A stretch of DNA of 64,000 nt. Origin: Lepidostoma basale. Its lineage: Eukaryota; Arthropoda; Insecta; Trichoptera; Lepidostomatidae. The notes beneath the pieces were generated by a model that was not told where the DNA came from, did not search any database, and was given only the letters and a program-made list of their open reading frames with translations. Both the position numbers and the translations under genes were made by a program. The stretch covers positions 1 to 64,000 of the forward strand of contig JAHDVF020001255.1 in NCBI GenBank assembly GCA_022606425.2, written 5' to 3'. Shown here one piece after another: positions 2,250 through 63,985 of this stretch (position 1 is the first letter of the stretch; the number at the start of each line of letters is the position of its first letter).

Positions 2250-2480
2250 AATGGTTTTGGCCGAAACACGATACAACTTCACAATTATTAACTGTTAAAT
2301 TTACGACCTTATTATACTATCATATTTTTTTAATTATACACAAACAGTGTTATTTCTAACACCTGATGACGCCAACATCGGTGGGCGAAACAGCTGTCGT
2401 GACATTCTCCAAAACTTTATATTTAAAAAAATCTGATATTATGATAGGGTTATAAATTTAACAGTTATTTTTTACATATT
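2250..2480 (+). repeat. Family E repeat with hammerhead-like core
   Basis: A dispersed repeat recognised by comparison with 47575-48010 and 60490-60650. Shared parts are a TTTTGGCCGAAACAC-like block (inverted at 60630 and 48000), a TAACTGTTAAATT block, and the central hammerhead-like motif at 2358-2404. It is non-coding. Ends are approximate. Confidence 0.55.
2358..2404 (+). ncRNA. Hammerhead ribozyme-like motif, family E
   Basis: CTGATGA at 2363-2369, one extra C, stem II GCC (2371-2373) with GGC (2384-2386), GAAA at 2387-2390, then the palindrome ACAGCTGT (2390-2397) and C2398, the predicted cleavage position. Stem I has three pairs: CAC 2360-2362 with GTG 2399-2401. All conserved core bases are present. 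The deviation from the textbook core is one unpaired nucleotide between A9 and stem II. Stem III is a loopless palindrome, so activity would need two RNA copies. Assignment is by pattern only. Confidence 0.6.
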
Positions 2481-2588
2481 ATACTGTGTTAACTATGATT
2501 GTATTAGTAATATTTGAAGTAAAAGCTTAAAAAGCTCACCTTTCTTCCAACCACTCGCCAACAACAGCAACTAACATTGACATGTTTT

Positions 2589-2815
2589 TTGTTTTTTTTT
2601 GTTTTTATGTATTCAACAGGTCGTTTGTACCCAATTACTGCATAAAATTTATTTTTAAGCTATTATATTGATTCTCGTGACATGTGATAGGTAACCAATC
2701 TATCGCCATTTTATTGTCACGTGAATTCTACACCAAACCAATGACAGTGTGACAATCACACTGCCATCGCCGGGAAACGAATCCGGGACCTTCGGTATGG
2801 AAGTCAGAGCTCTTA
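2589..2815 (-). mobile_element. tRNA-derived SINE, tail type 2
   Basis: Read on the minus strand: remnant of the tRNA-like head, the body (GACAATCACACTGCCATCG read on plus), the AAAATGGCGATAGATTGG block, then a tail ending in poly-A after GACCTGTTGAATAC. The first bases of the head (box A) are missing where the next LINE begins at about 2816. Same family as 12436-12585, 21580-21801 and 62580-62805. Confidence 0.75.
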
Positions 2816-3357
2816 CTAGATTATTATGTTATGATGTACGAAGCGTATGTAAAAAGCCGACTGACATATATGATTCCCTTCTGGGGGACAGGAAACCAAA
2901 AGGACATCTCCAGACTCCAAAGACAACAAAATAAAATAATAAAATTAGCATATAACATTGACTACCTTACCCCAACCATACAAGTATACAGACAAACAAA
3001 ACAAATGGACATATCAGACCTGACCAAATATGAGACCTTAAAAATTGTACACAGAGTGACCATGGAAAAGACAACAGACAGCAACTACAAATTAACTAAA
3101 AATTCAGACGTACACAGACACTGGACCAGGAACTGTGACAGATATCACTTACCGATTGCACGAACTAAGACAGGACAATCAAGGATACTGAACAATGGAC
3201 TGAAACTTTACAATGAACTACCGAAAGACACAAGGAGACTCACTACAACTCAGTATAAAAAATATCTGAAACAACATAATTAATAGTAAGATCTAAAAAT
3301 GTAACCATATAACCCAATTGTTTTTTTTTTAATAAATAAATAAATAAAAATAAAAAA
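2816..3357 (+). mobile_element. 5'-truncated Jockey/CR1-like LINE, RT C-terminus
   Basis: An open frame (2831-3283, about 150 residues) matches the C-terminal part of Jockey/CR1-type ORF2: a YVKSRLTYMIPFWG block, LQRQQNKIIKLAYN, and a closing NNGLKLYNELPKDTRRL motif, the usual end of these proteins. The catalytic RT boxes are absent, so this is a 5'-truncated insertion. After the stop comes a short 3' UTR and an AATAAATAAATAAATAAAA tail up to about 3356, typical of target-primed insertion. It lies against a SINE that lost its head here. The frame is uninterrupted, so the copy may be fairly young. Confidence 0.75.
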
Positions 3358-3844
3358 AATTATATAATGGATCACAACTGAATAAATAAAATTTATTTTA
3401 GTCATGCGGAAAAAAATATTCGCTTGAGTATTTAAAGTAGACTGCTGAAAATAAAATTGTTATGCCAATAAGTAATCTAAGTAAATAATCCATCAAACCT
3501 TTGTCACGGACCTCTCCTGTCCCAGCTCCGGTTCCCTGGTTTCCACCTGTTCACCTGGTTTCTGATGCGGGTTGACACTCGGAATCTTTAATCCGATAAT
3601 ACATAGTATCCAATGCAGACAGTAGCGATCTTTTGAATTGGAATACTCAATAAAACGGCTTACATGTACATACTTACAAACTAAACACATTTACCTATCT
3701 AAATAATAATTTTAAAAAATTCAATAACGAAAACCAAAAAAAATTTAGTCCATTATTTAATCCTCTCGATATGTGCACCAAAAGTCAGCCTACTTTTATA
3801 GATGATCCCGGGATCTCTCATCGTATAAACATTCTTATCATTAA
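3358..3844. other. Unassigned spacer with GC-richer segment
   Basis: AT-rich apart from 3495-3600, which is GC-richer and open on the minus strand for 65 codons (3493-3690, ending in a Glu/Arg-rich stretch). I do not recognise the peptide, and it has no domain I can name. It could be a fragment of an element. Confidence 0.3.
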
Positions 3845-3965
3845 CTTCTTTCAATTTTGCCTTTATTTTGACAACGGTTTCGCTAAGCTGGCTTGCATCA
3901 ATAGACCAGTCTGTCGATGCCAGCCAGCCTGGCGAATCTGATCGCTATCGAAATTAATACAAAAT
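3845..3965. repeat. Family F foldback, degenerate copy
   Basis: Inverted-repeat unit related to 47755-47890: shares GACCAGTCTGTCGATGCCAG and the GCTAAGC/GGCGAA hairpin next to a GAAACCG-like block. Arms are diverged. Confidence 0.55.
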
Positions 3966-4039
3966 TAAAAGCAGTTAATGAAAAAATCGTTTTATTTTTT
4001 GATAAACTCAAGGCTTCTACAAAATATATTTAACCTGTT

Positions 4040-4245
4040 GACGTCCGCAGTGACGAATTTTTTTATGAATTAAAACTAAATTTTTTTTACTGTTGAATTT
4101 ATTATTCTCGACATGTTTCGATGGCTTTACACTTTCGTCATCGAGAAAACAACATATGACTTATATCGTTCTGCTGATGATGAATGTGTAAAGCTTTCGA
4201 AATTCGAGAAAAATTAACTCCAAAGAGGGAAAACGGTGTTTTAAT
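4040..4245. repeat. Family D foldback with two opposed hammerhead-like cores
   Basis: Two divergent arms of one repeat. The minus-strand arm (4108-4147) has GAAA, the palindrome ACATGT then C, a GAAAG stem arm, and a 5-bp stem I (TTCTC with GAGAA), but its CUGA is damaged. The plus-strand arm (4172-4208) has an intact CTGATGA (4174-4180), a GAA/TTC stem II and GAAA (4199-4202), but has lost the palindrome. Other copies: 35820-36005, 36470-36600, 61655-61795. Confidence 0.6.
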
Positions 4246-4316
4246 TTAAAAAAAAAAACAGCGTTTTATTTATTTATTACTAATATTTAAAATGAGCTTT
4301 CATCAAGGTGGATGAA

Positions 4317-5381: not shown

Positions 5382-5382
5382 C

Positions 5383-5400: not shown

Positions 5401-5509
5401 CGTTCTGGCGTTGTCATTCGATGAAGGACTTGTGTGGGCTAAACATATGTCGTATATTGATTGTTAACTGTTTATTGTCGAATTGGTAGTTTTTAATTAA
5501 TTGTTTATA

Positions 5510-6454
5510 ATGGAACAAATAGTAAATGTTCCCGGGGCCCATTTCAAAACCCTTTGCAAGGCGTTGAAGGATCGCGGAATATTGCCAAAGAATACCCTCG
5601 TGGAAGTCCGTGTTCAGGCTGAGGAATTCAACTCACGGACGAGTGATGTCGTTCCACTCACCATACCCCCCACCGTCGCTGACCTGCCGATCTCCGCCCC
5701 CCTTTCAATCGTGTCCTCTTCATCGGTTTCTCTAACACGACCCCCTGTAGAGCTTCAGCCCTTGAATGTTAATTTCGCATCGTGGCCTGTGCAACATTTC
5801 ACCGGCGCGGAAGATGTGCGCGAATTTTTCACCCGTCTAGAAGAAATCGCCAAATCTAGACGCTTCGACTCCCAATTGTTGCCATCTGTACTTCCCGAAT
5901 TCCTCAAAGGCCGCGCTCTGACACACTATAGAGCGTATTGTACGACCTCCAGTGACTGGTTGCTCCTTAAGTCACAGTTCCTGCAGCGTTTCGAGGATGA
6001 CGATTATGTCATCTCAAAGAAGCTGGAGATATGGTCCTCGCGCCAGTCTCAAAATGAATTAGCGGCAGACTACTTCGCCCGGGTAGTGAGCACCAATAAT
6101 ACCATTGGGGAGGACGGTCTCTCTGACCAGGAGATCCTCAAGGTATTAAGGAAGGGACTTTCGCCCAAATTAGCCCCCGTAATAATTTCAGCCAACTTCT
6201 CCTCCGTCGTGGAACTGGAGAGAGCATGCCAGACCTACGAAAGATTGATTGGTGCGTCGGACCACCCCAGCCGCTCTGAACCTAAATCCGGCCCCTACGT
6301 CCAGAAATCCCTAGCTGCCGTTCGTGAGCCTCCCAAGAGCCCCCTAAGATGTTTCTCCTGCAAAAACCTGGGCCATATCGCCAAGAATTGCAGAAAAAAA
6401 AACCTTCCTGACACCTCTAGACCACCCCCCAGTTTTTTCGCAACAAAAAACTAG
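5510..6454 (+). CDS. gag: gag: capsid/nucleocapsid protein of the LTR element
   Basis: 314 residues from the ATG at 5510; an in-frame TTG at 5501 is not a likely start. The middle (about residues 85-240) has the helical Ty3/Gypsy gag look, including FTGAEDVREFFTRLEEIA and a WSSRQSQNELAADYFARV block. Near the C-terminus is one CCHC zinc knuckle, CFSCKNLGHIAKNC, spaced C-X2-C-X4-H-X4-C, expected to bind RNA. The frame is intact. The last codons, ACA AAA AAC before TAG, form a -1 slippery heptamer into the pol frame. Gag should make the cytoplasmic particle in which reverse transcription takes place. Confidence 0.88.
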   Translation: MEQIVNVPGAHFKTLCKALKDRGILPKNTLVEVRVQAEEFNSRTSDVVPLTIPPTVADLPISAPLSIVSSSSVSLTRPPVELQPLNVNFASWPVQHFTGAEDVREFFTRLEEIAKSRRFDSQLLPSVLPEFLKGRALTHYRAYCTTSSDWLLLKSQFLQRFEDDDYVISKKLEIWSSRQSQNELAADYFARVVSTNNTIGEDGLSDQEILKVLRKGLSPKLAPVIISANFSSVVELERACQTYERLIGASDHPSRSEPKSGPYVQKSLAAVREPPKSPLRCFSCKNLGHIAKNCRKKNLPDTSRPPPSFFATKN

Positions 6455-6510
6455 CAGCTAGCCAGTCTCCCGTAATCCCGCGCTCAGCGGAGTGGTTAGA
6501 CTGGCTGGCT
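6445..6510 (+). promoter_or_regulatory. -1 ribosomal frameshift signal at the gag/pol junction
   Basis: AAAAAAC (6445-6451) reads A-AAA-AAC in the gag frame, directly before the gag stop TAG (6452-6454). Four bases later (6452-6455 as spacer) a 13-bp stem can form: 6456-6468 pairs with 6498-6510, with a single T-G wobble. The 29-nt loop can hold a small CCGC/GCGG hairpin (6478-6481 with 6487-6490). The pol frame is -1 relative to gag and is open from 6421 through the protease. Slippery site, spacer and stem all match known -1 frameshift elements. Confidence 0.8.
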
Positions 6511-9500: not shown

Positions 9501-9643
9501 GGTACATATCTGCCAAACTGTGTCCCAGATTTATCAAGTGCAGGATACTCAAAAGAATTTCAGATACCATATATGAACTGTCTGATATGGCTGGAAAAAG
9601 TATCGGTACATTTCACATCAAGGACTTAGTCAAACAGGAATAG
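6445..9643 (+). pseudogene. pol: pol: protease-RT-RNase H-integrase, two frameshifts
   Basis: Segment 1 (open to 7671): retropepsin LLDSGAAIN with catalytic Asp at 6628-6630, then RT with KSPWLNNVFIVPKKDGSARF, ALDLSMGFWQMPL and TPFGIAN. Near 7520 the frame shifts by one base; segment 2 (to 9194) carries the RT active site YLDD at 7566-7577, RNase H (TCDASG, then AYFSRKLTAPERSYSTTERE), the integrase zinc domain (H-X4-H, then CDTC) and the core Asp at 8808 and 8988 and Glu at 9096, the last two spaced D-35-E. A second shift at about 9170-9190 leads to segment 3 (to 9643), the C-terminal domain ending in GTFHIKDLVKQE. All catalytic residues are present but split over three frames. It would be expressed by -1 frameshifting from gag. 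No env follows. Clade within Ty3/Gypsy is not resolved. Confidence 0.9.
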
Positions 9644-14146: not shown

Positions 14147-14330
14147 AGGATCCCGAGTTCGATTCCCGGTGATGGCAGTGTGATTGTTACACTTTGTTTG
14201 GTCTGGTGTAGAATTCGTGTGAGAATAAAATGGCGATAGATAAGCTACCTATCACGTATCACGAGAATTAACATGATTGCTATACCATTTAAATAGATTT
14301 GGCTCGCGCTGTAGTAATATTAAAGTAAAT
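14147..14330 (+). mobile_element. tRNA-derived SINE, 5'-truncated, tail type 1
   Basis: Begins at the box B region (GAGTTCGATTCCCGGTGA), then the common body, then the tail-1 end (ATTTGGCTCGCGCTGTAGTA). Box A is missing. Confidence 0.75.
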
Positions 14331-18526: not shown

Positions 18527-18932
18527 TTACAAGGATTAATTGTATCTCAATAGAGACGAAGATGCAAGTTGTTTTCTGGGAACAGAAGGTGGTGGCCGAG
18601 GCGTTTACAGGACTTATGACCTGTCATTGGTTGGGTTGAGCGATCGCTTCACGTTTAACAACATTCCCTAATCTTAATATAGATGACGCTAGTGTAGAGT
18701 GAACATAATATTGTGAAAATATTTGTAGAAACCTACCATATATACAAGTTCCAAAAAGTTTGTCAGACGTGGTGGTCATAACGGCGGAATGGGGAATGTT
18801 GTTAAACGTGAAGCGATCGCTCAACCCAACCAATGACAGTCATAAGTCCTGTAAACGCCTCGGCCACCACCTTCTGTTCCCAGAAAACAACTTGCATCTT
18901 CGTCTCTATTGAGATACAATTAATCCTTGTAA
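18527..18932. repeat. Family G foldback, arms of about 140 bp
   Basis: Near-perfect inverted repeat: 18527-18668 against 18791-18932, around a loop of about 122 bp. One base is missing in the right arm. Copies with one arm plus loop: 29680-29960, 57795-58020, 58915-59195. The unit extends another 90 bp to a TACATTCAAAATGTTG end in three copies. No ribozyme core seen. Confidence 0.85.
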
Positions 18933-19189: not shown

Positions 19190-19559
19190 AGCGGCCGACA
19201 GACGTTCAGCACCTACCCTCGGAGGCAATCTTTCACCCCTCTCTGGGGGTAATTCCATAAAGATAGCACCCCAAAGCAGTTATTCTACCCCCGCCCTATG
19301 TACGTACGTAAGGTGAAGACAGTTTTTACGGTTGCGTACTATTCCTGTCTTATCCGAAGCCCTTATCTGTTGAACGGTATCTAACGTGACGTAAAGGGCG
19401 TTCTCACGCCTCTCCGGATGCCAGGGCTTCTCTGAAGGGCTACTTGTAATCAGCTTGTAAAAATAATTGTAGACACACGCATTTCTAACTCCGCGTATAT
19501 GGTAAGTAAAATTTTTTATATCAAAGCTGTTTGAATTTTTATTTTTATTAAATTCTATT
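19190..19559. other. Non-repetitive GC-richer island
   Basis: 19190-19505 is GC-rich and unique in the window. A 140-codon minus-strand frame (19280-19702) crosses it but its 3' part enters the SINE, so I do not call it a gene. Confidence 0.35.
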
Positions 19560-19775
19560 GACGACCTTTGTGGCCTAATGGTAAGTGCGACGACTGCCAC
19601 ACGATTCGATTCTCGACGATGACAGGATATTTGTAACACTGTAAATGGTTTGGTATATAATTCACGTGGTAATAAAATGGCGAAAGATAAGCTACCTATC
19701 ACGTGTCCTGAGAATCAATATGATAGCTATACCCTTTACATCGAATGGCTCGCGTTGCATTGATGTAATTTTTTT
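19560..19775 (+). mobile_element. tRNA-derived SINE, tail type 1, diverged
   Basis: GACGACCTTTGTGGCCTAAT head, weakened box B (CGATTCGATTCTC), body, and tail-1 end. It is more diverged than the copy at 62580. Confidence 0.75.
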
Positions 19776-21493: not shown

Positions 21494-21539
21494 TTTAATA
21501 TAGAGTTTTACATCATTGTTCTAGAAACAATAAATAACA

Positions 21540-21575
21540 CAAACATGTTTCGGACACAAAAGTCCTTCATCAGTA
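21540..21575 (-). ncRNA. Hammerhead ribozyme-like motif, family C, best preserved
   Basis: Minus strand: CTGATGA (21567-21573), one A, stem II GGAC (from 21562-21565) with GTCC (from 21552-21555), GAAA (21548-21551), palindrome ACATGT, then U as the cleavage-site base. Stem I pairs five of six positions (A-rich 5' strand with TGTGTT). Every invariant core base of a hammerhead is present; the extra unpaired A between A9 and stem II is the only departure. Confidence 0.65.
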
Positions 21576-21579
21576 TTTT

Positions 21580-25329: not shown

Positions 25330-25985
25330 ATTTGTTTCAAACCAAATGTACACTCAGATTGTAATAAATGTTTTCTATCAAACTGAATATTTAACTCATT
25401 TTCGAATTTTGCTTGACATTGCCGTCTTTGTTTCTGTACGCCTCATATGTTCCATTATTATAAATTATATATTTTAAACCGCAACACTTATGTGTTGCAG
25501 CCCTGCTCCGTTAAAAGCTTTAACAAAACTGCCAAGAAGCCTACGACACGGTAATAACGCGGCGCAATATGTTATCTTTATTGAGGCCTGTCATACGCTA
25601 GGACATGATACCATCACAATCTTTTGTTTCTTGAAATTGGATTTCAAAAAATACATGACTCTGTCGTGGGATATTGATTTCTCGTGGAGCCATCCGATAA
25701 ACGGTATCTTATATTATTATGAAGGTTTTATTCACGGTAGGCACCGAAATGCTTTCGATTCGAGGGCGGAAAATGCTCGGGGGAGCATTTTGTGTTTTTG
25801 GTATTGAAGCATTCGTAACCTTTTAACCACCAATTGGTGATCAGAGCAATATAAATAAAATATCTGATAAATAAAATCAAATATTTCAGATAAAAGTATT
25901 AAGTAATTTTTAATGTATTTTTATTAAGGTATTATCAAATGTGTCAAAAAACTTATATAAACAAAAATAATAAATTTATCTTTTT
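25330..25985. other. GC-richer island in AT spacer
   Basis: 25490-25810 is unique in the window and has a 105-codon plus frame (25490-25807) without a motif I know. Could be an exon or a conserved element; not called. Confidence 0.35.
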
Positions 25986-25989
25986 TTTA

Positions 25990-26275
25990 TTTTTACATAC
26001 TTTGTTTATACAAAACTAACTTTAAAAAAAAAAATTGTGACATGTTTCGGACAACCCGGTCCTTCCTCAGTGATAATATAAAGTTGTTTACAAATATGAT
26101 CAGTTTTGACAGATAAGAAAACTGATCATATTTGTTGACAATTTTATAATATTTCAAATATCTTTATAATATCACTGAGGAAGGACCGGGTTGTCCAAAA
26201 CTTGTCTGATATTTAATTTAATTTTTTTTAAAGTTAGTGTTGTATATACAAAGTATATAAAAAAAAAATAGACAA
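25990..26275. repeat. Family B foldback with two opposed hammerhead-like cores
   Basis: Inverted repeat around a second small hairpin (AACTGATCATATTTG region at 26120). Minus core at 26039-26070: CTGAGGA, GGAC/GTCC stem II, GAAA, ACATGT, C. Plus core listed separately. Confidence 0.75.
26168..26213 (+). ncRNA. Hammerhead-like motif, family B, with full stem I
   Basis: Stem I is a perfect 7-bp pairing: AATATCA (26168-26174) with TGATATT (26207-26213). Between them: CTGAGGA (26175-26181), one A, GGAC (26183-26186), loop, GTCC (26193-26196), AAAA in place of GAAA, and CTTGTC (palindrome C-A-T-G decayed at one base). The G12 and stem III mutations probably make this copy inactive, but it shows that stem I exists. 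Confidence 0.6.
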
Positions 26276-26524
26276 ATAAAACATCTACAACACACATTAT
26301 GGCGAACATAGAAGAAAAAAAATATCAAAATGCATATCTTGGATTATTGAGTTTGACCTTGTGACGTGGTATGATGATAACTTAAGGATTAACATTAACT
26401 GTTTTTATACAATCTGTATATAATAGTTTGTCAAATGCAAATATACGAAGTGAATGCAGTGGGAATGAAAGTGTTAAATGTTTCTTGAACAGTGATGTAA
26501 ATCTCCATATGAAATAATTTAAAA

Positions 26525-27149: not shown

Positions 27150-27700
27150 AATATTATGATATTGTAAAACTGTAGTCCTTGATCTGTTCAGCAAACACCA
27201 AAATCCTGCAAAATTTTAACTAAGTTGAATTTTTCTGCATGAGTGCTTTGGGTTTTCGCTTATATTATCAAAATGTAATAAAAGGAATTTCGCTTAGGGA
27301 ACAAAGTATGAAAATAAAAATAACCTCGGGCCTCTGCCAACTCGAAATAGAGAGGGGGTAGAGAACGCGCAGGAGGGGCGTTAGGAACATATATTATTTA
27401 TAAATGATGTGTTAAATCTTCAAAGTTCTAAAAGTTATATTTCTATTATTAACATGCAAAATTTCAATGCCATTATCTTTATTAAATTAATGATCTCATC
27501 AATCAATCAATCTCGAAATTTTAGAAATTAAAAAAGCAATTAAAAATAAGAAAATTTTATAAATAATCAAATAAATTTAACCTCAAGTCCAATCTTTGAT
27601 TTATTTCCTTTGTTGTAAGAAATTACCTGAACCCCAATAAAAACTTAAAATTATTATTTTAAATTTTAAATTGAATCATAATGTTTGTTATAACAAAAGC
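27150..27700. other. Unassigned AT-rich spacer
   Basis: Short GC-richer patch at 27320-27385 with CTCGAAATAGAGAGGGGGTA. No recognisable feature. Confidence 0.4.
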
Positions 27701-27857
27701 ATAGACGTTCCGAAATAAATCTTTATAACATCTGTCAGATCATGTAAACAATTTTATAATATTTAAATTTGTATCGCTGAAGAAGGAATGGTTGTCCGAA
27801 ACATGTCTATGTAATTTTAATTTTTTTAATGTAAGTGTTGTATATACAAAGTACGTA
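27700..27857 (+). repeat. Family B repeat arm with hammerhead-like core, split by RTE-A
   Basis: Core at 27777-27807: CTGAAGA, A, GGAA/GTCC stem II with one mismatch, GAAA (27798-27801), ACATGT, C27807. The B sequence stops in TTGTATATACAAAGTA at about 27855 and resumes at about 28305 with AAAAGAGAAAAAGAG and the ACAACACAAAGTATGG module, so an RTE-A copy landed inside it. Confidence 0.65.
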
Positions 27858-35690: not shown

Positions 35691-35819
35691 TACTTAGCAT
35701 TTTCGGGTTTCAGAATCATTCCACATCAAACAGCATCATAACTCACCAAAATCGAGAATTTAATTTTTATTAAACTTCTGGCGTTAACGCTGGAATTCCA
35801 CAATGAGAATTTATTAAAT

Positions 35820-36005
35820 GAATTTAAGCATTGTTTAATCAATTTGTGAGTTTATTTTTTTTCAACATGTTTCGGATATTTCACACACTTTCATCGTCAG
35901 GGCAACGAGAAGAAAGAGTTGAGGTATAAAACCTTCGAATCATGTCGAGAAAAATAAACTCGAAAGTGCAATAAATATTGGCTTAATTCATAAAGAATTC
36001 GTCCA
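35820..36005. repeat. Family D foldback
   Basis: Minus arm: CTGACGA (35894-35900), then GAAA (35870-35873), ACATGT, U. Plus arm (35927-35950): AGGT/ACCT hairpin, GAAT, CATGTC, GAG. Arms share AATAAACTC flanks. Confidence 0.6.
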
Positions 36006-37240
36006 AGAATGTAAAATAAATTAAACTTTTAGTTTATTAAACATAATGGGGTACTTTTATATAACCTTAAATTCCTAACTAGTCATAATCCATAACTCGA
36101 AATGAATTGTATTCGATATAGACAGTAACAATACGAGAATAAAAAACTTTTTAAACTGATTCTATGCAACCGAGTCTGGGCGGGACATAACAAAAACCAA
36201 GTTCATCCCATTGGGCCCACCCTGTAGACACGCTACCCTGTACAGAGCCGCTAGCAGATAATAATAATGTTAAAAAAAAATCAAATCCATTTTTTGATTC
36301 GCTTGCATTAAAACGATCTTAATTTATATGGTTTATTTGTATGTACAAACATTAAAGTCTTTTTTTATTTATCCGTAAATAATGTGCTTACTTTTTCTAT
36401 AATTCACGTATAAAAACTTTATTTTAAATAAAAACTAATGCGTCAACACCGTGGAATTCTCTAAAGGCGATTTTTTATTTTATTTTGTAAAACTCAATTT
36501 CATTCAATTTTATTTTTCTCGAAATATTTCGAAGGTATTTCATACACATCATTGGGTGAACGAGGTAAACATATTGTAATGTAATGTGAATAAAAAAAAA
36601 TTGTAGTTCCATTTTATTGTTTTTTACACAAATGGCCGCATTTTACAAAAGTCTTAATTAGGAAAAGCATGCAGATTCCGTAAAAATATTGAAACTTAAA
36701 AAACATAGACATTTCCTATTTATTTTGGTCGGTTTTCTTAATTGAACACCGTTAGGCTTCTTAATCTTGAGCCATGCCGCTTTATTTGAACTATTCATAT
36801 TAGGGTTGGCTTTTGTTTATTTTGGCTGGTTAGTTTTACAGCAGGTTCCTCCCTGACGTCAATACCGTGCCCTTCTTAGAAGGGTCGAAAGCCGCTGTTT
36901 ACTCCTCAGGAATCCTCCAACACCATCCCTCCCGCACACCCCAATCTAGTTATATACCACCACTCTCGACCCCTATTTCAAATTCGATTTTTTTTACATA
37001 TTACAGATAACATGCCAATTCGAAAAAATGCATCGACATCAACAGTACTTGAGTACAATGCTAATAAACTGAATACTTAAAAAATAAGTTTTTTCCTCAA
37101 GTCACCGATTTGGAAGAATGCATCGATACCGATACACGAACAAGCACGACACTAATGAGGATGAAAACTTTCAAAAATTTAGAGTATTTTCCTTTTAAAC
37201 ACCGTCTCATTAATATTTTTTTAAATCGAGTTCCGAAACG
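36006..37240. other. Mixed spacer with decayed family D copy
   Basis: 36470-36600 is a degenerate D arm (TTCTCGAAATATTTCGAAGG). 36730-36990 is GC-richer and unique in the window. The rest is AT-rich. Confidence 0.4.
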
Positions 37241-42850: not shown

Positions 42851-45519
42851 AAATATATTCTTAAAACTCCATATCTTATTATTATAAAGAAAACGTCAAT
42901 TTTTCGCTAGTTTTATTCTTAAAACACATCTTTTTTATCTACTTTATATGCGAAACATGTCATTCTCGCTTCTTCGTTTGTTTAATTTGGAGTTTTCATT
43001 TATCACTGTCCATGAAACAATAAATTAACATTAACTCTCAATTTTAGAGCACTAAAAAATAATAACTAATATTATAATATAATATGTATACGAAAAGTTT
43101 ACCGTGCCACCAGATATAGTTAAATATTATGTTTAAATAACTTTTATAAAAATTAATCACAATTTTTTAATGTTACAGGTTAATCTGGAAAATATGTTTA
43201 TTTTTATATTTAATACCATCCACTTCACAACACATTATTATAACACCCTGCATAAATAAAAAGTTCAAAAATTTAAGAATCAACCCCCCTGAATCCAACC
43301 GTTTCACGACGCGGTTTGACAGTTTTACAACCCCAATTTCCAAAATTCGAAATTGTCTTCGAAGTTCCTTATCCCCTCACGACGTGACGACAAGATGAAC
43401 CGCTGGATTAGGATTGGCCCCGCACCGCGACTTCCGGTTGATAAGATCTTCGCAAACTTCCTTCCGTTTCCTCCCGAAAGAACAATGGTGAAGGTCTTGT
43501 CTTGGAGGAAGTGTTTATTATCATCCCTCATCTAACATTGTTATACTCCCTTAGTTTTGAAATAGACACGGGGTTAAGAAAATTGTTGCATTAAAATTAC
43601 ACAAATTTTGGAATTGTTTCTTGGTTCAAAGATGTAGATTTCTTTAGATTATATATTGAATTTTATACAATTCATTTTGTGTATAAGACAATAGATTATT
43701 TGATAACATTTTGTTAGTTTAATAATGACAAAACTACAATGATTTTTCAAATATTGTTCTGATTTATTATTTACAAATATAATATTTTTCGATAATCCAA
43801 AGGAATTTACTCTGTGACAATCCATAATTATGGTTAATGTATAAATTAAAACACTGTTATTTTTCGATATCGAGTAAACAAATTTTGTCGATAAATTTCG
43901 AATGCGTTAATCCTTCGATGGGAAAACTAAATAAACTCACCAAAATAAATAAAGTTACTATTATATATAGTCTATATAATTCTCTCGACTACGAAGGTTT
44001 AATGCATTTGAAATATATCAAGCCAAATAGACAGCAAAGTGGGAAATACTGTATTTGAATTCACATATAAATCTTATAAAATTGTCTATTAGACAATTAA
44101 CCCACGCGGACTATTACTGAACTCTGTAAATAAGTAAATATGTACACGTTATTATGACAAAAAAGTACTGTTAATGTAACATGAAAACAAAAATAACCTA
44201 ATAAAGAGAAAACACGTTCCTCTCAAGTACAAATTATAAACATGGCGATATTAGTTATGTGACGGTCTTTCTACTGATACAATTTTTTGTATGATCACCG
44301 CTCCACGGACTTTGAAAAGGTGTCGATCCGATGCAATATAATTCAACGTCCTAATTACTTTTACATTTATGGCATACGCAATCTAGTAACTTTTGAACCA
44401 TCCTGTCTAAAAAGCCGGGTAAGTAGCGAAATATATTTACGACACTAAAGTCCAGGGGTCTTCATGTTTTTATATTAAAAGCTGTGTTTCGTTTGTGTAA
44501 TTTCGTAATAAACTTTATCTTGCTGAAGTTTTCTGTTTAGCGTTATAGTTTTGACACAGAATAGCCAGAGGAGGTTTTTAAAAGCTCTTTTTGTTTCTTC
44601 GAAAGTTTAACAAGTTTCGTAAGTTTACGTTCTGAAAATTTGCAAGGATTCTAAAATATGGTTCATTATAACGTGTTCACGAGGTGAGCTTATTTTCAAA
44701 AATCACCTTTACTAAAGCTTCTAACAGTTATTGTTATATGCATTATTAAATTTTGATTTGATTTTGGGAGGGTGCACGTAAACAAATGTTTTTCTTGTGT
44801 TATTTATTTATTCCTACATCCAATCGTAATGCTAAATTGACAAAATTATAAAAATAATAAGTTTTTAATGCATATTCAATTTTCTGTAATGAATAAACTT
44901 TTATAAATAAAATCGATTGCTACTTTTTTTTCAAATGTAGCAAAGCGAATTATTTACTAAAGGCAATTTTAATATTAAAGGCTTTTTAATCAATTTCATA
45001 TGTGTCATATATTTTATCATTCTCTCAATGATAAAAGCATCTGACTGTCAATATTTTGGGGAAAATAAAAACAAACATTTAAACGTGTATTTTATTCATA
45101 ATAAAATATTTATAATAAAATTATACTGCAATTATGTTATAAAATCAATTAAATATTAGCAAAACTAAATTTAACGATTAAATTATTTGTAAAAATATAT
45201 ACAGTATTTTAATAAACCAAAAATATTGATATATTAAGTAAGATATTAAGTAAGAAATGGATTTAAACGCTTCTAAAATACAATTAATTTTGACTATTTA
45301 ATAAAGTAATAACTTTACCAAAAATAAAACAAAACAAAAAAAAATCAATTGTGTATTTTCATTAAAAGTCATAACATAAACATTTTAAGTTTTTGACCGG
45401 CAAAGAAAGCCGAATGTTTGATTATTAAATTCACCTAATAAATTAAGTTTTCACATGAACTGTGGTATTGCTACTATGCTTAATAAACATATTATGTTTT
45501 CGATAATAATCTTTCCTCT
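42851..45519. other. Mostly unassigned DNA
   Basis: 42880-43010 resembles one arm of family A (GCGAAACATGTCATTCTCGC). 43260-43560 is a GC-rich unique island. 44240-44700 is moderately GC-rich. The rest is strongly AT-rich. No gene. Confidence 0.4.
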
Positions 45520-45985: not shown

Positions 45986-46394
45986 TCCAGTGTACGATTA
46001 CGTAATGCGAACTTCTTTTGTTTTGTAACTATTCATTTAATATATATTATAATAGCTCTACAAAGAGAGCAAATTTTGTCAAACTTTGCTTTATTATTAT
46101 TTCGAGCGAAAACTCGAATTTCCCTATTATGTGTGGGAACATGACCTAATATTTTGCAAGTCACTTAATACACACAAGGCCGATCCTAACAACTATTCCT
46201 GATATTACAACTAGTATTACGTTATCGAAAATACAGGAAGTGTTTGCATTGTTTTGAGACCGTTTCAAGAAACCAGTGGCAGTTTGTAATTTTTAATTAT
46301 AATAACTTTAAAATATTTCGAGATAATTTTATTCACATAAGTAGAAAACACAGTAATATATTTAATTATCTGAAATAATCTAATTCATTTCTTT

Positions 46395-46770
46395 TTTCCT
46401 TTTTTATGTACTTTTATATACAACACTAATATTAAAAAAATAAAATTACATAGACATGTTTCGGACAAACAGTCCTTCTTCAGTAAAGATACATTTTTTA
46501 AAATATTATAAAATTGTTAACATGATCTGACAGAGGTTATAAATATTTTTAGGTGTTATAAAGTTAAGAAACCTTTATAACGTCTGTCAGGTCATGTAAA
46601 CAATTTTATAATATTTTTAAAAATGTACCTTTAATGAAGAATGACTGTTTGTGCATGTCTATGTTATTTTATTTTTTTAATAAAAGTGTTGTGTATACAA
46701 AGTATATAAAAAAGAAAAAGAGAATTAAACCATCATAACAACACAAAGTATGGCGTATATAGGAGATAAT
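46395..46770. repeat. Family B foldback
   Basis: Minus arm core 46453-46483 is intact: CTGAAGA, A, GGAC/GTCC, GAAA, ACATGT, C. The plus arm (46632-46660) has lost GAAA. It ends with the ACAACACAAAGTATGGCG module. Confidence 0.75.
46453..46483 (-). ncRNA. Hammerhead-like motif, family B
   Basis: All core bases present with a 4-bp stem II (GGAC/GTCC) and palindromic ACATGT. Stem I is only about two pairs here. Confidence 0.5.
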
Positions 46771-47574
46771 GTAATTCAGTTTCAAAACCTAAAGTTTAAT
46801 TATTACGACATTACCAAACATTTGATAATGCCTTTGTAAGACGAAAGATGTCATCCTCATAAAATATAATAAAACTTCTAGAATAGAAACGCATAAATTA
46901 TTCAATAGAGAGTTTTTCATCATTATTCAAGAAACAATAAATAAAAATATTTTTTTGAACAAACTTGTGAATGGTGATGCTATTTTTTTTTTCATTGAAA
47001 AAAGTTTTTACATGTCATAAATAAATTCACGTTTTATCACAATAATTACTAATTCTGCTCCTAGGTAATTTCGATTGAAAGAATTTTCTATTTATGTTAA
47101 TATCTTTAATCCTTGAAGATGAAACCTGTTATGATTACCAAAACATTGCTAAAATAGGGTACAATGAAAAAAAAAACGAGCCAATATCCCAAGAAATACA
47201 TTAACAAATATTATTTATAGTGAAACTAGAAGTAAATAAAAGATTAACCTAAATCACAATTTTTTTGGACCAATTTGGGAAAACATTAGCATTATATGTT
47301 CCTGAACCTCTTTCCGGGTATGTCTATATTGGATTATTTAATCCACATCATCTGCAATACATGGTTGTCAAAATAAAATAATCTTCTTCCAAATGTATTT
47401 TTATTTCTTTGAAAAAAACAGTTATGATTGCTTGATCAATTATGTAAAACTCTGTATTAAATAATTAAAATGAGGAAATTTAGATGTTTTTTGAAAATGT
47501 ATTTACCAATTTTAAAAAAAGCTCCATTTCAACTGTTAAATTTGCAATAATGTTAAAATATCCCATTTTTTACT
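46771..47574. other. Spacer with family A arm fragment
   Basis: 46840-46890 is a family A arm (TGATAATGCCTTTGTAAGAC, GAAAGATGTC). The rest is AT-rich without features. Confidence 0.5.
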
Positions 47575-47715
47575 CTACACTTTTTTGAGAATGTCGCGAT
47601 AGCTTTTTCGCAAACTTATGTTGGAATCATTAGGTGTTACAGACAATTTTTTCTTACACCTGCTGATATTACCATCAGCTGTTACGACATTCTCAAAAAG
47701 AGTGATATTATAACA
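47575..47715. repeat. Family E foldback
   Basis: Arms TTTTTGAGAATGTCG and CGACATTCTCAAAAA with decayed hammerhead cores (ACACCTAATGA on minus; CAGCTGTTACGAC on plus). Confidence 0.65.
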
Positions 47716-47754
47716 GTAATAATTAAATAAAACGATGTTTTTTATTACTACTTC

Positions 47755-47890
47755 CACATTTGTCTTTATTTCGACAATGACCGGTTTCGCCAGATTTGCT
47801 CAGGTCTACTGGCCAGTCTGTCGATGCCAGCGAGCCTGGCGAAACCGGCCACTGTCGAAATAAAGACAAATTTGGAAATAGTTATAAAAA
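47755..47890. repeat. Family F foldback
   Basis: Arms ATTTGTCTTTATTTCGACAA and complement. Minus side: GAAA, palindrome ACCGGT (47780-47785), C. Plus side: GCCAG/CTGGC stem, GAAA, ACCGGCC. The CUGA box is not well kept in either arm, so the hammerhead reading is weaker here. Confidence 0.6.
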
Positions 47891-48009
47891 ACACCGTTTA
47901 TTGAATTATTATTTAAAATGAACCTCCATCAAGAGATTGCAGTTAAATCATTGGATTATATTATACAAGTGTTGTAAATTGAACAGTTAATATCGTTGAA
48001 GTACTCTTA

Positions 48010-52674: not shown

Positions 52675-53175
52675 TGTATATACATACAAATTTGTAAATA
52701 CATACAAATTTAAAAAAAAATACATAGACATGTTTCGGATAACCAGTCCTTCTTCAGTGATAGATATTATAAAGATACATTTTTTTAAATTTTATAAAAT
52801 TGTTTGCGTGATCTGCCAGATGTTATGAAGATTTATTTTGGAACGTTTAAGCTTTTGTTATAGCAAATATTATTTTAATTTTTATTAATTTAAAAAAGTA
52901 TTGTTTTAATTTTTAAATTGAATCATAATATTTGTTATAATAAAAGCATAAACGTTCCAAAATAAATCTTTATAATATCTGTCAGATCATGTAAACAATT
53001 TTATAATATTTTTAAAATGTATATTTATAATATGTATCACTGAAGAAGGACTGGTTGTCTGAAACATGTCTATGTATTTTTTTTTTAATATAAGTGTTGT
53101 ATATACAAAGTACATAACAAATTAAAAGAGAAATAAAGCATCACAACAACACAGACTATGACGTATATAGAAGAA
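52675..53175. mobile_element. Family B element with 11-bp target duplication
   Basis: 501 bp inserted in RTE-A. The sequence AATCAAATATT flanks it at 52664-52674 and 53176-53186. It has two opposed hammerhead-like cores (52727-52757 minus, 53040-53070 plus), AT-rich arms with TTTGTTATAA blocks, and ends in the ACAACACAGACTATGACG module. No coding frame. An 11-bp duplication fits target-primed retrotransposition. Confidence 0.75.
53040..53070 (+). ncRNA. Hammerhead-like motif, family B
   Basis: CTGAAGA (53040-53046), A, GGAC (53048-53051) with GTCT (53057-53060, last pair G-T), GAAA (53061-53064), ACATGT (53064-53069), C53070. Confidence 0.5.
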
Positions 53176-53344
53176 AATCAAATATTACCTGTCGACCACG
53201 TGAGAAGTCTGAGAAATTGACGTGCGTTTATGACACTGTGTATAAATATCGAGGAAGCGAGAGAAATGTGTCAGAAATGAACAGTTTGGCATTATATTAT
53301 TTCTGCCTACTCCTTTGGAGAGACGACGTGAAGGTTAGTATTAA

Positions 53345-59240: not shown

Positions 59241-59359
59241 CAAAATGTTGATTAAATTAAACCTTAATTAATTTGTTCTCACATCTTCTATTTCCACGGT
59301 TGGCAGCAATATGTTTTGTGTGATTTTGGATAACAACGTGTGATGACTTCTACTCAACC

Positions 59360-59394
59360 GACATTTCGGAGATCGTTGCAGTCTCCATCTTCAG
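59360..59394 (-). ncRNA. Hammerhead-like motif, family I
   Basis: Core complete with the longest stem II of the set (5 bp). Stem III reduced to AUGU. Stem I three pairs. Confidence 0.5.
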
Positions 59395-59449
59395 GGTAAT
59401 ATGGTGGTGATAATAATTAATTTACGTTTTTTACCACCACCACATTACC

Positions 59450-59485
59450 CTGAAGATGGAGACTACAACGAAATTCCGAAACGTC
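59450..59485 (+). ncRNA. Hammerhead-like motif, family I
   Basis: CTGAAGA 59450-59456, GAAA 59478-59481, ACGT then C59485. Stem I ACC (59447-59449) with GGT (59486-59488). Confidence 0.5.
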
Positions 59486-59699
59486 GGTTGAGAAGTAGAA
59501 ATCACACGTTGTTACACAAAACATATGCAAAGAGTAAGTCACTCATAAATATGAAAAAAAAAAAAAAAAAATTATGTATATTTACATAGTTAAAATCCAC
59601 AAATATGTGTTTCTTCGACCGATTTTGACAGCTCGCTGCCATCTTCTTGTCTGAAAGAGATGTTAAAAAGATTTTTATTTTACTTTATTTTCATTAAAT

Positions 59700-60240: not shown

Positions 60241-60430
60241 TATTTTAATTAACTGTATTTATAATGTTTATTTAATTAACTGTAATTAGGCACCTAAGGT
60301 GAATGAAGGTTCCTTGAGGCCCAATGCACCACGGAGGTATGACAGGACAAAAAAGAAGAAGAATTAGGTACCTAACTCAATCCCAACAAGAACTTCAAAA
60401 CGAAATCAAAGAAATTATTTAAATTGACAT
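60170..60430 (-). mobile_element. Q element fragment
   Basis: CTCAACCATCAATAG, AATTAGGCACCTAA and CCAACAAGAACTTCAAAAC blocks match 26960-27130. Interrupted by a 64-bp LINE end. Confidence 0.65.
60298..60361 (+). mobile_element. 64-bp GAA-LINE 3' end with 14-bp target duplication
   Basis: GGTTCCTTGAGGCCCAATGC...ACAAAAAAGAAGAAG lies between AATTAGGCACCTAA (60284-60297) and AATTAGGTACCTAA (60362-60375), one mismatch. A very strongly 5'-truncated insertion. Confidence 0.8.
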
Positions 60431-60489
60431 AAGAACAAATACACATAGTGGTACGAAAAATCAATAAAATTATTTTTAACAGTTGAAAA

Positions 60490-60650
60490 AATTATCATCA
60501 CATATGTTAATGTCAACATAGGTTGACGAAACAGCTGTCGCGAAAAATTATTTTAAATATGAAAATGGTGATACCGTCAATAGAGTTTTATAATTTAACA
60601 GTTAATAATATTGAAGGATCATAGTGTTTCGGTCAAAACAATGGACGAGT
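60490..60650 (+). repeat. Family E copy
   Basis: 6-bp stem II GTCAAC/GTTGAC (60512-60517 with 60522-60527), GAAA (60528-60531), ACAGCTGT (60531-60538), C60539. CUGA box decayed to TTAATG. Followed by the TAACAGTTAATAAT and GTGTTTCGGTC blocks. Confidence 0.65.
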
Positions 60651-61654: not shown

Positions 61655-61795
61655 ATTTTAGATAAACTTAAGGCGTTAACACTTTGAGTTTATATCATTC
61701 TCTCGATAATGTAGGTGTAAGCCTTCAAAACATGTCGAGAAAAATAAACTCAAAAGTGGAAAAAACAGTCTTTTAATTGATAAAAAATCATAGAA
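61655..61795 (+). repeat. Family D copy
   Basis: Core: TCTCGATAATG, GGTGTAAGCC hairpin, AAAAC, ATGTC, GAGA. Stem I TCTC with GAGA. Flank AATAAACTCAAAAGTGG. Core bases partly lost. Confidence 0.6.
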
Positions 61796-62045: not shown

Positions 62046-62174
62046 AAACAAATATATAAAAATTTGATAAGAAATTTGATATCATGTATAAACAGATCAA
62101 AATATGTACAGTAAAGGGAAGAAGAGGAAGACTTCATTATAGCCATGGTCAAAATTATATACGACATTTGTATG

Positions 62175-62560
62175 TGAATACTATATTATAGAAGAGAGGT
62201 CAGAGCCGATACCAATAGAAATAAGAACCTTCTAAGATTACCAGAAATGTGAACCCAATGCACCAACGCAGGCAAAACCCTCAGAGATTGGATCAGAAAT
62301 GAAACAATAAGGTATGTTTGTGGTGTTGAGGACATAGTGAAATGGGGAAGAAGCAGAAGGCGATTTTGGAGAGACCACGTGGACCGCATGGAGAATAAAA
62401 TAATTGCAAAAATTGTTAAAGATGAAAACCCAAGCAGCAAGAAAAAAATTACCTGGAAGGCCGCCGAAGAGATGGAGAGATGGCTGGACACCATCATCCC
62501 AGGTCACCCAAAAGGTCATTCGACATAAACTAAGAGGAAGAAGAAGAATAATAAGATAAT
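62175..62560 (+). mobile_element. GAA-LINE C-terminal copy
   Basis: Plus reading: TLRDWIRNETIRYVCGVEDI, KWGRSRRRFWRDHVDRMENK and TWKAAEEMERWLDTIIPGH, then GAGGAAGAAGAAGAATAA. RTE-type tail, one of the better preserved. Second copy on minus at 42545-42850. Confidence 0.75.
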
Positions 62561-62579
62561 GAATAAGAAGAAAATAATT

Positions 62580-62805
62580 GACGACCTTCGTGGCCGAGTG
62601 GTAAGTGCATTGACTGCCACTCCGAAGGTTACTGGGTTCGATTCCCAGTGAGGGCAGTGTAATTGTCACACTGTCTTTGGTCTGGTGTAGAATTCACGTG
62701 ACAATAAAATGGCGATTTATAAGCTACCTATCACATGTCACGAGAATCACTATGATAGCTATAATACCCTTAACATCGATTTGGCTCATGCTGTCATGAT
62801 GTAAA
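62580..62805 (+). mobile_element. tRNA-derived SINE, tail type 1, best copy
   Basis: Head GACGACCTTCGTGGCCGAGTGG with box A (TGGCCGAGTGG) and box B (GGTTCGATTCC at about 62636), the RNA polymerase III promoter pair of a Ser/Leu-type tRNA. Body GGGCAGTGTAATTGTCACAC, AATAAAATGGCGATTTATAA, then the tail-1 end. Confidence 0.88.
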
Positions 62806-63064
62806 GAGCGATTCAACAAAATAATAATAATTATTATTTTTGTGAAAGATCTATTTTGAAAATGGAATATAGTTATCCTCTAACGTGGAAACAAAATTTT
62901 TACTCAAAATCTTCCGTTGCTCAATACCTGTTTAAATTTTAAGAATCTCGTATTTTAACGTTTCTTGCCTACAATGTGTCAAAAGAAAGAATCTATCATA
63001 TGTAGATAACGAAACATTGAAAAAAGTTGATATATAAGCAAATAAGACATAATAAATTAACATA
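62806..63064. other. AT-rich spacer
   Basis: No feature recognised. Confidence 0.5.
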
Positions 63065-63450
63065 ATTCACGACAGAATCTCAAATGCTGATATAAGAAAG
63101 GAATGTAGAGCGGAAAAAAGCATTATGAACTAAATGAAAGGATCGCTGCGTTGATTCGGACATATGGAGCGCATGGGTGAAGAAAGAATGGTTAAAAAAG
63201 GATACGTTAACGAAGTAAATGGAGTACGGACTTAAGTTAGACCGAGAAAAACATGGCATGACCAAATTAATCAAATTTTAAAGATTGGTCATGTCAGAAG
63301 CCGGAAGAATCGACGTGCGTGTATGACTCGCTGTATGAATGTAGAGGAATCTAGAGAGGTGTGCCAGGATTAAGTAGTGTGGCGGTCCATTCTCTCTGCC
63401 TACCCCTACGGGGAAACAGCGTGATGGTTTGTTTGTTTTGTTTTTAATTC
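63065..63450 (+). mobile_element. RTE-A copy, (GTTT)n tail subfamily
   Basis: From ACAGAATCTCAAATGCTGAT through AGAAAAACATGGCATGACCA to GCGTGATGGTTTGTTTGTTT. Several stops. Confidence 0.78.
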
Positions 63451-63879
63451 GCGTGATTTAAACATAAAATTTTCCAGAAATAACATGTATGGTTAAATGT
63501 AAACCTTTCTCTCACGACTGAATCTTTTTTTAAAACCATTGCAATGTCAAAGGGGAAAACTAACCATTGAAAACACGTATAAAAAAATCCCACCCGTTCC
63601 CGAACTCACCGTACCGAATATAGTGATAGTATTAATGGACCCATTAAGCAAATGGCGGCCCGATTCTTCATCTGGCTCTGCCCATCCGTTCATCCCCTCT
63701 CCACTGCTTACCCCTTCGTGGCCCACTTTCACCTGATTCTGTATATCATCCGGCTCTAGTACACGAATCAATCCAAAACAAACTCTACGCGAGATTTACG
63801 AGTACTTTTGACATAAAGCACAATTTGGCTTTTGCTGAAATACGAAATTAGAAAGTTTTGTGTTTTTAAAATGATCAAA
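63451..63879. other. Unique GC-richer island
   Basis: 63540-63800 has no repeat match here; two opposite short frames (63539-63736, 63547-63771) show no domain. Confidence 0.35.
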
Positions 63880-63985
63880 GTCTATGGGAATTATATGTTT
63901 GACGTAAATAACATTTGACAATGCATTAGATAGTCAAAAAATGTGATTCCCAATTCCTTAAAATATATGTTTTCATTCGTTTCAA
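63880..63985. repeat. Family A copy, decayed
   Basis: TATGGGAATTATATGTTTGA and ATGTGATTCCC arms around ATTTGACAATGCATTAGA; the ribozyme core is lost. Confidence 0.55.

Follow-up and report, generated by a model that had tools for sequence, protein, structure and literature searches.

Hammerhead-bearing foldbacks of Lepidostoma basale as probable Penelope-like insertions, with a proposed origin from paired cDNAs

The foldbacks of a 64,000-nucleotide stretch of Lepidostoma basale DNA (the window; contig JAHDVF020001255.1) are very probably short, 5′-truncated insertions of several families of Penelope-like elements (PLEs), whose palindromes may have been formed by paired cDNAs. Each insertion would carry the minimal type I hammerhead of the PLE 3′ end (pLTR), and the palindrome would be formed anew at every insertion. 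The proposed PLE identity draws on sequence for family F, on architecture only for family A, and on likeness of layout for the candidate families B, C, D and I. The family letters are our own and not those of an earlier sequence-only reading of this DNA.

Hammerhead motifs and foldbacks in the window

A loose descriptor (CTGANGA-N4-30-GAAA) returned 16 rows (13 different starts, some nested), against 4.2 (s.d. 1.9) in 100 shuffles of the window. A strict descriptor with a loopless stem III required a perfect core, at least three Watson–Crick pairs in stem II, GAAA, a perfect palindrome of at least 4 and a non-G at position 17. Eight sites satisfied it, whereas 60 shuffled windows yielded 0.03 on average (maximum 1); all eight have one extra base after A9. 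Five are copies of family A (26070−, 27777+, 46483−, 52757− and 53040+), and the others belong to X (21573−), I (2363+) and B (59450+), which amounts to about four independent families. With one core mismatch permitted, the count was again eight versus 0.8 (maximum 4) in shuffles. With two, there was no excess (13 versus 6.8, maximum 13), so that the near-variant families C, D and F are unproven by motif alone; these more degenerate candidates rest on homology rather than motif counts. The common hammerhead layout claimed by the sequence-only reading is thus confirmed in part, for the strict motif. Of the scans of the window that it proposed, the custom loopless descriptor gave the eight sites, whereas the Rfam models gave no hammerhead at the gathering threshold or among the matches listed to E 10. 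The Rfam matches to MIR5380/MIR6140 at 59346–59502 were rejected, being below the gathering score and merely tracking a long hairpin.

Self-BLAST of the window revealed ten self-inverted blocks of at least 165 bp. In eight of them, the arms read outward from the centre and contain the motif, intact or degenerate; the blocks at 18527–18932 and 37491–37735 lack it. Profiles add two degenerate palindromes, D2 and D3 (Table 1). Within the window, the evidence for a tail is clear in family C and weak in family D.

Table 1. Hammerhead-bearing features of the window
Feature	Position	Strand	Description	Evidence
F1	3822..3998	.	second palindrome of family F, more decayed than F2	self-BLAST, profile
F2	47717..47959	.	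head-to-head palindrome; right arm with core CTGTCGA, stem II GCCAG/CTGGC and tail; left arm without tail	self-BLAST
F2 tail	47918..47959	+	first codons of PLE ORF (ATG at 47918), ending at common tail end GATTAT; recurs in genomic F copies	
A1	25973..26319	.	palindrome, sub-form CTGAGGA, right arm tailed; hammerhead 26070-26039 (-)	
A2	46385..46771	.	palindrome, right arm tailed; hammerhead 46483-46453 (-)	descriptor, profile
A3	52682..53178	.	palindrome, right arm tailed; hammerheads 52757-52727 (-) and 53040-53070 (+)	descriptor, profile
A4	27638..27857	+	one arm only; hammerhead 27777-27807 (+); tail interrupted by LINE fragment, resuming at 28305-28369	
X	21542..21573	-	hammerhead CTGATGA..ACATGT, related to A, adjoins a SINE	descriptor, profile
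B	59301..59544	.	palindrome, left-arm stem II GGAGA/TCTCC; hammerheads 59394-59360 (-, palindrome degraded) and 59450-59485 (+)	self-BLAST, descriptor, profile
C1	21290..21537	.	palindrome, core TTGATAA, stem II GCCTT/AGGGC; right-arm tail from 21495, weak left-arm tail match (p 0.04)	self-BLAST, profile
C2	35132..35252	-	single arm, tail not found	profile
C3	46819..46944	+	single arm, tailed	profile
C4	49393..49498	-	single arm, tail not found	profile
D1	4047..4265	.	palindrome	self-BLAST, profile
D2	35817..36007	.	palindrome, core CTGACGA in left arm	profile
D3	43838..44072	.	degenerate palindrome	profile
D4	61698..61793	+	single arm	profile
I1	2289..2467	+	hammerhead 2363-2398 flanked by short inverted repeat; stem II GCCAAC/GTGGGC (one mismatch), palindrome ACAGCTGT	descriptor
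I2	47527..47661	-	copy of family I	profile
I3	60401..60526	+	copy of family I, stem II GTCAAC/GTTGAC, core degraded	self-BLAST, profile

Read by eye, stem II differs between families as paired bases: GGAC/GUCC in A and X, GGAGA/UCUCC in B (left arm), GCCUU/AGGGC in C, GAAGG/CCUUC in D (consensus), GCCAG/CUGGC in F and GUCAAC/GUUGAC in I3. Each of these stems has a G-C pair adjacent to the core. For the palindrome, A, X and the consensus of C and D have ACATGT, B has ACGT, F has ACCGGT and I has ACAGCTGT. The paired changes of stem II are as the sequence-only reading had described them, and its loopless, palindromic stem III is upheld by the strict descriptor and the family comparison; the palindrome varies between families as it stated, but single copies deviate from that of their family. 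The CUGANGA ... GAAA core with stem II is present in families A, X, B, I, G and K. At the family level, F deviates by A6U (CUGUCGA in all 27 rows listed, from 23 distinct places) and C by C3U/G8A (consensus UUGAUAA), so the ribozymes of F and C may be inactive.

Stem I pairing lay outside the earlier examination. Across the cleavage site, the summed pairing runs of eight families reach 25 versus 9.4 when permuted (p 0.001), or 21 versus 8.6 (p 0.002) when X is taken from the window itself; families I and C and the major form of A show only weak pairing. The 172 matches that served, among other data, for reading stem II and the core include some loci twice, and for the core 8-mers only the family consensus was used, some rows being one base off where the anchor took in an extra nucleotide. 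Stem I of these putative hammerheads pairs within families above chance.

A possible qualification, to which we give somewhat less than even weight and which is compatible with the PLE reading, is that these are PLE remnants whose hammerhead is an inactive, inherited relic. The long hairpins of foldback transcripts would then bury the hammerhead. The family-level core changes in F and C, the decay of many copies and the finding that no Anolis RNA ends map to the cleavage site (PMC11167929) agree with a relic; against it, stems I and II remain complementary between families of unrelated sequence.

Links to PLEs in families F and A

Elsewhere in the genome, a 758-aa open frame carries RVT_1 (E 1.4e-13) and GIY-YIG (E 6.6e-5) domains; an F-type hammerhead follows the frame at a distance of about 390 nt, and an inverted copy lies on the opposite side. 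A 494-aa open frame with an F pLTR likewise carries both domains, and the F profile matches in 18 of 30 GIY-YIG loci, representing 16 distinct places. Over 171 columns, the right arm of F2 shares 84% identity with the pLTR and tail of one RT/GIY-YIG element (L103), whose matching tail includes the ORF start codon. Family F therefore shows the single ORF with RT and GIY-YIG next to a pLTR that defines endonuclease-containing PLEs; no such ORF link was found for families A, B, C, D or I. To the earlier statement that no Penelope protein is visible it must be added that the first codons of a PLE ORF lie in the window and that RT and GIY-YIG frames accompany the F pLTR elsewhere in the genome. The kinship with PLE hammerheads that it suggested is borne out.

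Family A comprises 9309 copies at up to two mismatches in the 769-Mb genome. The majority of the A copies seen are ORF-less. Among the 100 exact places listed, neighbours no more than 1 kb apart form 15 divergent, 2 convergent and 0 direct pairs; neighbours within 1 kb among 128 profile hits at 66 loci are 47 divergent, 3 convergent and 11 direct, with gaps of −1 to 20 nt between the direct ones in L013, L038 and L046. Two arrangements typical of PLEs are thus present: inverted, head-to-head pLTRs in families A and F, and direct tandem or partial-tandem copies in A (11 of 61 neighbour pairs).

A third PLE trait, an optional tail of 30–40 nt on one terminal repeat, occurs in both families. Among the 33 A pairs that could be classified, 30 have exactly one tailed arm, 3 lack a tail and 0 have two tails (14 of the 47 pairs were left out for an unclassified arm); the permutation mean is 16.6, and the observed value was reached in 0 of 100,000 permutations, the tail classes having been defined after the bimodal end positions had been seen. 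In family F, exactly one arm is tailed in 12 of 12 pairs. Moreover, 9 of 30 A palindromes are bounded on the outside by exact direct repeats of 10–13 bp, versus 0.3% of mismatched flanks, and direct repeats of at least 12 bp accompany 9 of 12 F copies (one in an AT microsatellite) versus 0 of 130 mismatched pairings; PLE target-site duplications measure about 8–10 bp.

These arrangements speak against non-autonomous, retrozyme-like elements spread via circular RNAs from double hammerhead cleavage, as the sequence-only reading had proposed. Such an origin is very improbable: it could account for the hammerhead core with stems I and II, the ORF-less majority and the few direct neighbours, but direct tandem repeats flanked by hammerheads are not the main arrangement, neighbours being chiefly divergent (47 of 61 by profile, 15 of 17 exact pairs), one arm bears a PLE tail, target-site duplications are present, stem III has no hairpin loop, and family F is tied to a PLE ORF.

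The palindromes also vary internally. Centre spacing ranges from 59 to 803 nt in 15 A pairs and takes 11 different values in 12 F pairs; the F arm table, which mixed arms under a 450-nt window, was used only for spacing and tail side. Between tailed and tailless arms of A there is no difference in alleles (p 0.96). On these grounds we rejected the amplification of a single master palindrome. Foldback or MITE-type DNA transposons, in which fixed palindromic units resemble hammerheads incidentally, would also give palindromes with target-site duplications, yet we regard them as barely credible, because centres differ between copies, arm ends are unequal where common fixed terminal inverted repeats would be expected, single-armed copies exist, PLE ORF codons occur in the tail of one arm, and the strict motif greatly exceeds chance expectation. 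Partner arms of A resemble each other more closely than arms paired at random do (0 of 2000 permutations). The A arms are old, the closest match to an arm being its own partner in no more than 7 of 90 cases (about 1 expected), so claims about single events rest on family F.

How the two arms may arise

In four F copies (L078, L091, L092 and L095), the tailed arm stops 316–673 nt short of the tailless arm on the 5′ side. Each arm therefore has private sequence, and neither was copied from the other, which favours two-sided target-primed reverse transcription over self-priming. L077 was excluded from this comparison on account of foreign DNA between its arms. The arm joints, read by eye, contain microhomology or filler, and the target-site duplication was confirmed by script at L092 and L095 and unconfirmed at L078 and L091. 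Collectively, these observations suggest that two DNA copies, each started separately, are joined head to head to make up an insertion.

We propose that the PLE enzyme makes cuts in both strands of the target, staggered by about 8–13 nt, and that reverse transcription would begin at both target ends. The start site would lie inside the beginning of the ORF for the tailed arm and just upstream of it for the tailless arm. The two cDNAs would reach different 5′ stops and then join through microhomology or filler. Since cDNAs would often stop within the pLTR, many insertions would be palindromes that lack an ORF and have one hammerhead per arm. That PLE insertion normally consists of two cDNAs, one per fixed RNA start site and target strand, placed head to head, is the reading that we lean towards slightly.

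Alternatively, the PLE origin would be shared and the first cDNA would fold back and be copied, giving the palindrome by self-priming. L104, a near-perfect palindrome of 2283 bp in which the two arms have stops no more than 2 nt apart, and the 13 of 22 A pairs with both starts inside the model whose starts lie within 10 columns have near-symmetric centres, which self-priming predicts and independent truncation does not; self-priming was also preferred for head-to-head palindromes in Adineta vaga (PMC3846280, in the parts cited). We nevertheless consider it unlikely, as it predicts neither the second fixed end site of one arm nor, in the four F copies, a shorter tailed arm when neither arm could be copied from the other, and the joints examined have filler or microhomology.

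Relation to known elements and meaning

Published Penelope elements have inverted pLTRs, an optional 31-bp tail on one of them and target-site duplications of 8–10 bp (PMC3846280, in the parts cited). As here, Pen2a_Av, Pen2_Av and Pen3a_Av of Adineta vaga form head-to-head inverted pLTR pairs, with the optional tail at the 3′ end of one pLTR, the ORF start within pLTR and tail, and palindromes and microhomology at junctions. In contrast to the low copy number described there, L. basale holds thousands of family A motif copies and several families, and the many ORF-less palindromes go beyond the cited parts of that account. Exactly one tailed arm per pair, counted in A and F, is a new detail beyond the published Penelope description.

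Poseidon PAc of Anolis carolinensis resembles the present elements in its RT and GIY-YIG ORF, in a hammerhead near the ORF start and in a tail between two RT start sites, and in vitro it cleaves and extends both strands (PMC11167929). PAc forms tandem pLTR arrays, whereas the arms here are mostly inverted and, unlike in that account, genomic copies point to one start site per arm. In the same study, insertion in vitro did not require the hammerhead, which was inactive in the absence of protein. By analogy with the literature, the hammerhead may serve PLE RNA processing, with protein, as a dimer.

Minimal PLE hammerheads without helix III were described by Cervera and de la Pena 2014 and Lunse et al. 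2017 (as cited in PMC7761336 and PMC6466107); like those here, they are of type I and have a palindromic stem III, and action as a dimer has been proposed. The dimer additionally needs tandem motifs, according to PMC6466107. Neighbouring motifs here are mostly inverted, so a cis dimer is impossible within one simple palindrome. Metazoan retrozymes share a type I hammerhead in non-coding repeats but, in the sections cited, consist of directly repeated tandem units whose type I hammerheads are complete, with helix III, and they form circular RNAs (PMC7229834, PMC7761336); the present elements, compared at the DNA level, have mostly head-to-head arms and lack a helix III loop.

How PLE insertion yields inverted pLTRs with a one-sided tail appears unsettled in published work, with self-priming one published reading. 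Many of the thousands of family A motif copies sit in small natural insertion products, and because cDNA starts, joint and target duplication are directly readable, two-sided target-primed reverse transcription is testable by counting. Several dispersed minimal hammerheads of one animal genome are now placed in PLE insertions. If the paired-cDNA reading is true, foldbacks would be what PLE transposition ordinarily produces rather than accidents, and the optional tail, long known, would indicate which of the two starts had been used.

Hammerhead motifs and foldbacks in the window

The window is AT-rich, carries many retroelement fragments and belongs to a genome of 769 Mb in 1572 contigs. Eight sites in it match a strict hammerhead descriptor with a loopless palindromic stem III, versus a mean of 0.03 and a maximum of 1 in 60 dinucleotide-shuffled windows. 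These sites are copies out of about four families; all eight have one extra base after A9, and none is reached by the Rfam hammerhead models in a scan of the window. Based on self-BLAST, the window contains ten self-inverted blocks, each 165 bp or longer, eight of which bear the motif or a degenerate form of it in their arms, reading outward from the centre, while the motif is absent from the other two. The foldback families with one hammerhead layout described in the sequence-only reading are real, though partly degenerate, and comparison across families bears out its statement that stem II changes as paired bases. A stretch that by eye looks similar to the two motif-free repeats flanks L105, a family F locus outside the window.

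Stem I pairing was compared by dealing downstream flanks among families. Across eight families, with the family X sequence taken from the outside locus L082, uninterrupted pairs sum to 25 versus 9.4 after permutation (p 0.001). With the window's own X, the sum is 21 versus 8.6 (p 0.002), and it rises to 43 (p 8e-5) once the minor A form and a single D copy are included, both chosen knowing the result. Among family A copies in fetched loci, 24/115 have 6-10 uninterrupted pairs beside the core, and 74/115 have a single pair followed by a mismatch. The family F core reads CUGUCGA (A6 to U) in 27 of the 27 rows listed (23 distinct places), found with a descriptor tolerating one mismatch, and in the family C consensus core, UUGAUAA, positions 3 and 8 are altered together. 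Two more hammerhead families, G and K, adjoin GIY-YIG matches at five fetched loci (L074, L084, L086, L088 and L089), in the forms CTGAAGA T GGAGG TAT CCTCC GAAACATGTC GTGT and CTGAGGA A GCTC..GAGC GAAACCGGTC GAC.

Other repeats are also present. The broken Ty3/gypsy-type element encodes gag with a zinc knuckle as well as RT, RNase H and integrase, spread over several frames. The related repeat copies are probably a tRNA-like SINE, and one of them terminates immediately next to the X hammerhead.

Features located in the window
Feature	Positions	Remark
Ty3/gypsy-type element	5501-9643	broken
Related repeat copy	2596-2816
Related repeat copy	14178-14274
Related repeat copy	19558-19721
Related repeat copy	21576-21803
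Related repeat copy	62578-62753	contains the tRNA match below
Sub-threshold tRNA match	62584-62656
Inverted repeat without motif	18527-18932	arms 94+53 bp, spacer about 113 nt; both such repeats 96-100% complementary
Inverted repeat without motif	37491-37735	arms 87 bp, spacer about 71 nt
Tail-like stretch	21495-21537
Tail-like stretch	26479-26519
Tail-like stretch	39785-39815
Tail-like stretch	47422-47468
F2, family F head-to-head palindrome	47717-47959	right arm with tail
ORF's ATG in F2 tail	47918

Probable Penelope-like origin of the palindromes

The genome holds at least 62 GIY-YIG matches, a lower bound because 150 of 541 candidates were scored, and family F arms occur in 18 of 30 loci fetched around such matches (16 distinct places). 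In the RT/GIY-YIG element L101, a 758-aa open frame with RVT_1 and GIY-YIG is followed after about 390 nt by an F hammerhead and flanked on its opposite side by an F arm in inverted orientation. F2 matches the terminal repeat (pLTR) of a second such element, L103, at 84% over 171 columns, and the match continues through the tail, which includes the ORF's ATG. Since the F pLTR is tied to the RVT_1/GIY-YIG ORF and the F2 match runs through the ORF-start tail, family F is, by direct sequence, a Penelope-like element (PLE). Family A is one by architecture only, as no ORF is tied to it; its tail, ATGGCGAATATAGAAGAA, looks like an ORF start. These assignments replace the earlier proposal of non-autonomous, retrozyme-like elements. 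According to earlier reports, the pLTRs of Penelope are inverted, one of them bears a tail, and the target-site duplications (TSDs) are short (PMC3846280, PMC7334843, PMC8969392); minimal helix III-less hammerheads are found in PLEs and dispersed in animal genomes (PMC7761336, PMC6155905). One tail-like stretch, about GAGTTTTACATCATTGTTCAAGAAACAATAAATA, adjoins both family C and family I, as though tails had been exchanged.

Family A arms across the genome

A genome search for the 31-nt motif of family A returned 9309 occurrences at up to 2 mismatches and 0 for the motif read backwards. The 100 perfect matches listed, which come first in contig order, include 15 divergent neighbour pairs (59-803 nt apart), 2 convergent and 0 direct at distances of up to 1 kb. 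From 70 fetched loci, 66 of them distinct, an arm profile gave 128 matches, whose neighbours within 1 kb are divergent in 47 cases, convergent in 3 and direct in 11; thus, partial tandems exist too. At three loci (L013, L038 and L046), arms on one strand follow directly on each other with gaps of -1 to 20 nt, resembling the partial tandems described for PLEs. A hammerhead dimer requires a palindromic stem III loop and, for eukaryotes, also tandem motifs, according to PMC6466107, and a cis dimer could form here only in such same-strand copies.

Arm ends were compared in 47 divergent pairs, namely 44 from the loci, after three secondary pairings were dropped, and three from the window. They fall mainly at two places, near and far, the far one being the tail, and 14 of the 47 pairs have an arm outside both classes. 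The 33 classifiable pairs comprise 30 mixed, 3 both near and 0 both far, versus 16.6 mixed by random pairing (0/100,000 permutations reach 30), with classes defined after the two peaks were visible. Moreover, exact 10-13 bp direct repeats flank 9/30 mixed palindromes, versus 0.3% in mismatched flanks. Because tailed and tailless arms show no allele difference (p 0.96) and partner arms are closer than random pairs (0.136 versus 0.161 substitutions, 0/2000 permutations), each palindrome probably arose afresh, with one kind of template as the source. The arms themselves are old, since just 7/90 have their partner as the nearest arm. Additionally, a common upstream stretch, 68-90% alike, adjoins the A arm at five loci (L008, L031, L035, L044 and L055); in three of these (L031, L035, L044) the stretch codes for a fragment of a LINE-like 3' ORF, suggesting a LINE/pLTR composite.

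Formation of the palindromes

Exactly one arm is tailed in 12/12 family F pairs, of which L101 and L102 share the same spacing and are possibly one event. Judged by eye, tailed arms end about 42 nt into the ORF, and tailless ones stop a few bases upstream of the ATG. Exact direct repeats of at least 12 bp occur at the outer ends of 9/12 copies, one in an AT microsatellite, versus 0/130 with mismatched pairing. Arm lengths were compared in ten events, with L101/L102 counted once and L077, which has foreign DNA between its arms, left out. The tailed arm extends further 5' in L098, L101/L102 and L103 and less far, by 316-673 nt, in L078, L091, L092 and L095; in L076 and L104 the reach of the two arms differs by no more than about 31 nt, and in L105 they have a common centre with an internal jump in the left arm. 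Where the tailed arm is shorter, each arm has unique sequence; thus, neither arm was copied from the other in these four copies, which argues against self-priming as the source of their second arm. A script confirmed the TSD in L092 and L095 and did not confirm it in L078 and L091.

By eye, the F joints contain either filler or short microhomology. At the head-to-head joints of L076 (around 1302, with three copies of a unit of about 16 nt) and L092 (around 2150), the filler is repeated and resembles the templated insertions of microhomology end joining.

Two-sided target-primed reverse transcription is the simplest account, given the arm and joint evidence together with in vitro work on a PLE in which both target strands were cut and extended and two start sites were used (PMC11167929). 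Counting against it, that work detected no start-site difference between strands, and centres are near-symmetric in 13/22 comparable A pairs and in L104. Self-priming, the reading preferred in PMC3846280, better explains such centres and may operate beside the two-sided route, so that both may occur.

Among the titles, abstracts and passages covered by literature searches that miss most subscription journals, none describes numerous palindromes of this type with hammerheads. As far as these searches go, the novelty lies in the scale, in a one-tail rule that is nearly exclusive and in evidence that one palindrome can arise from two separate cDNAs.
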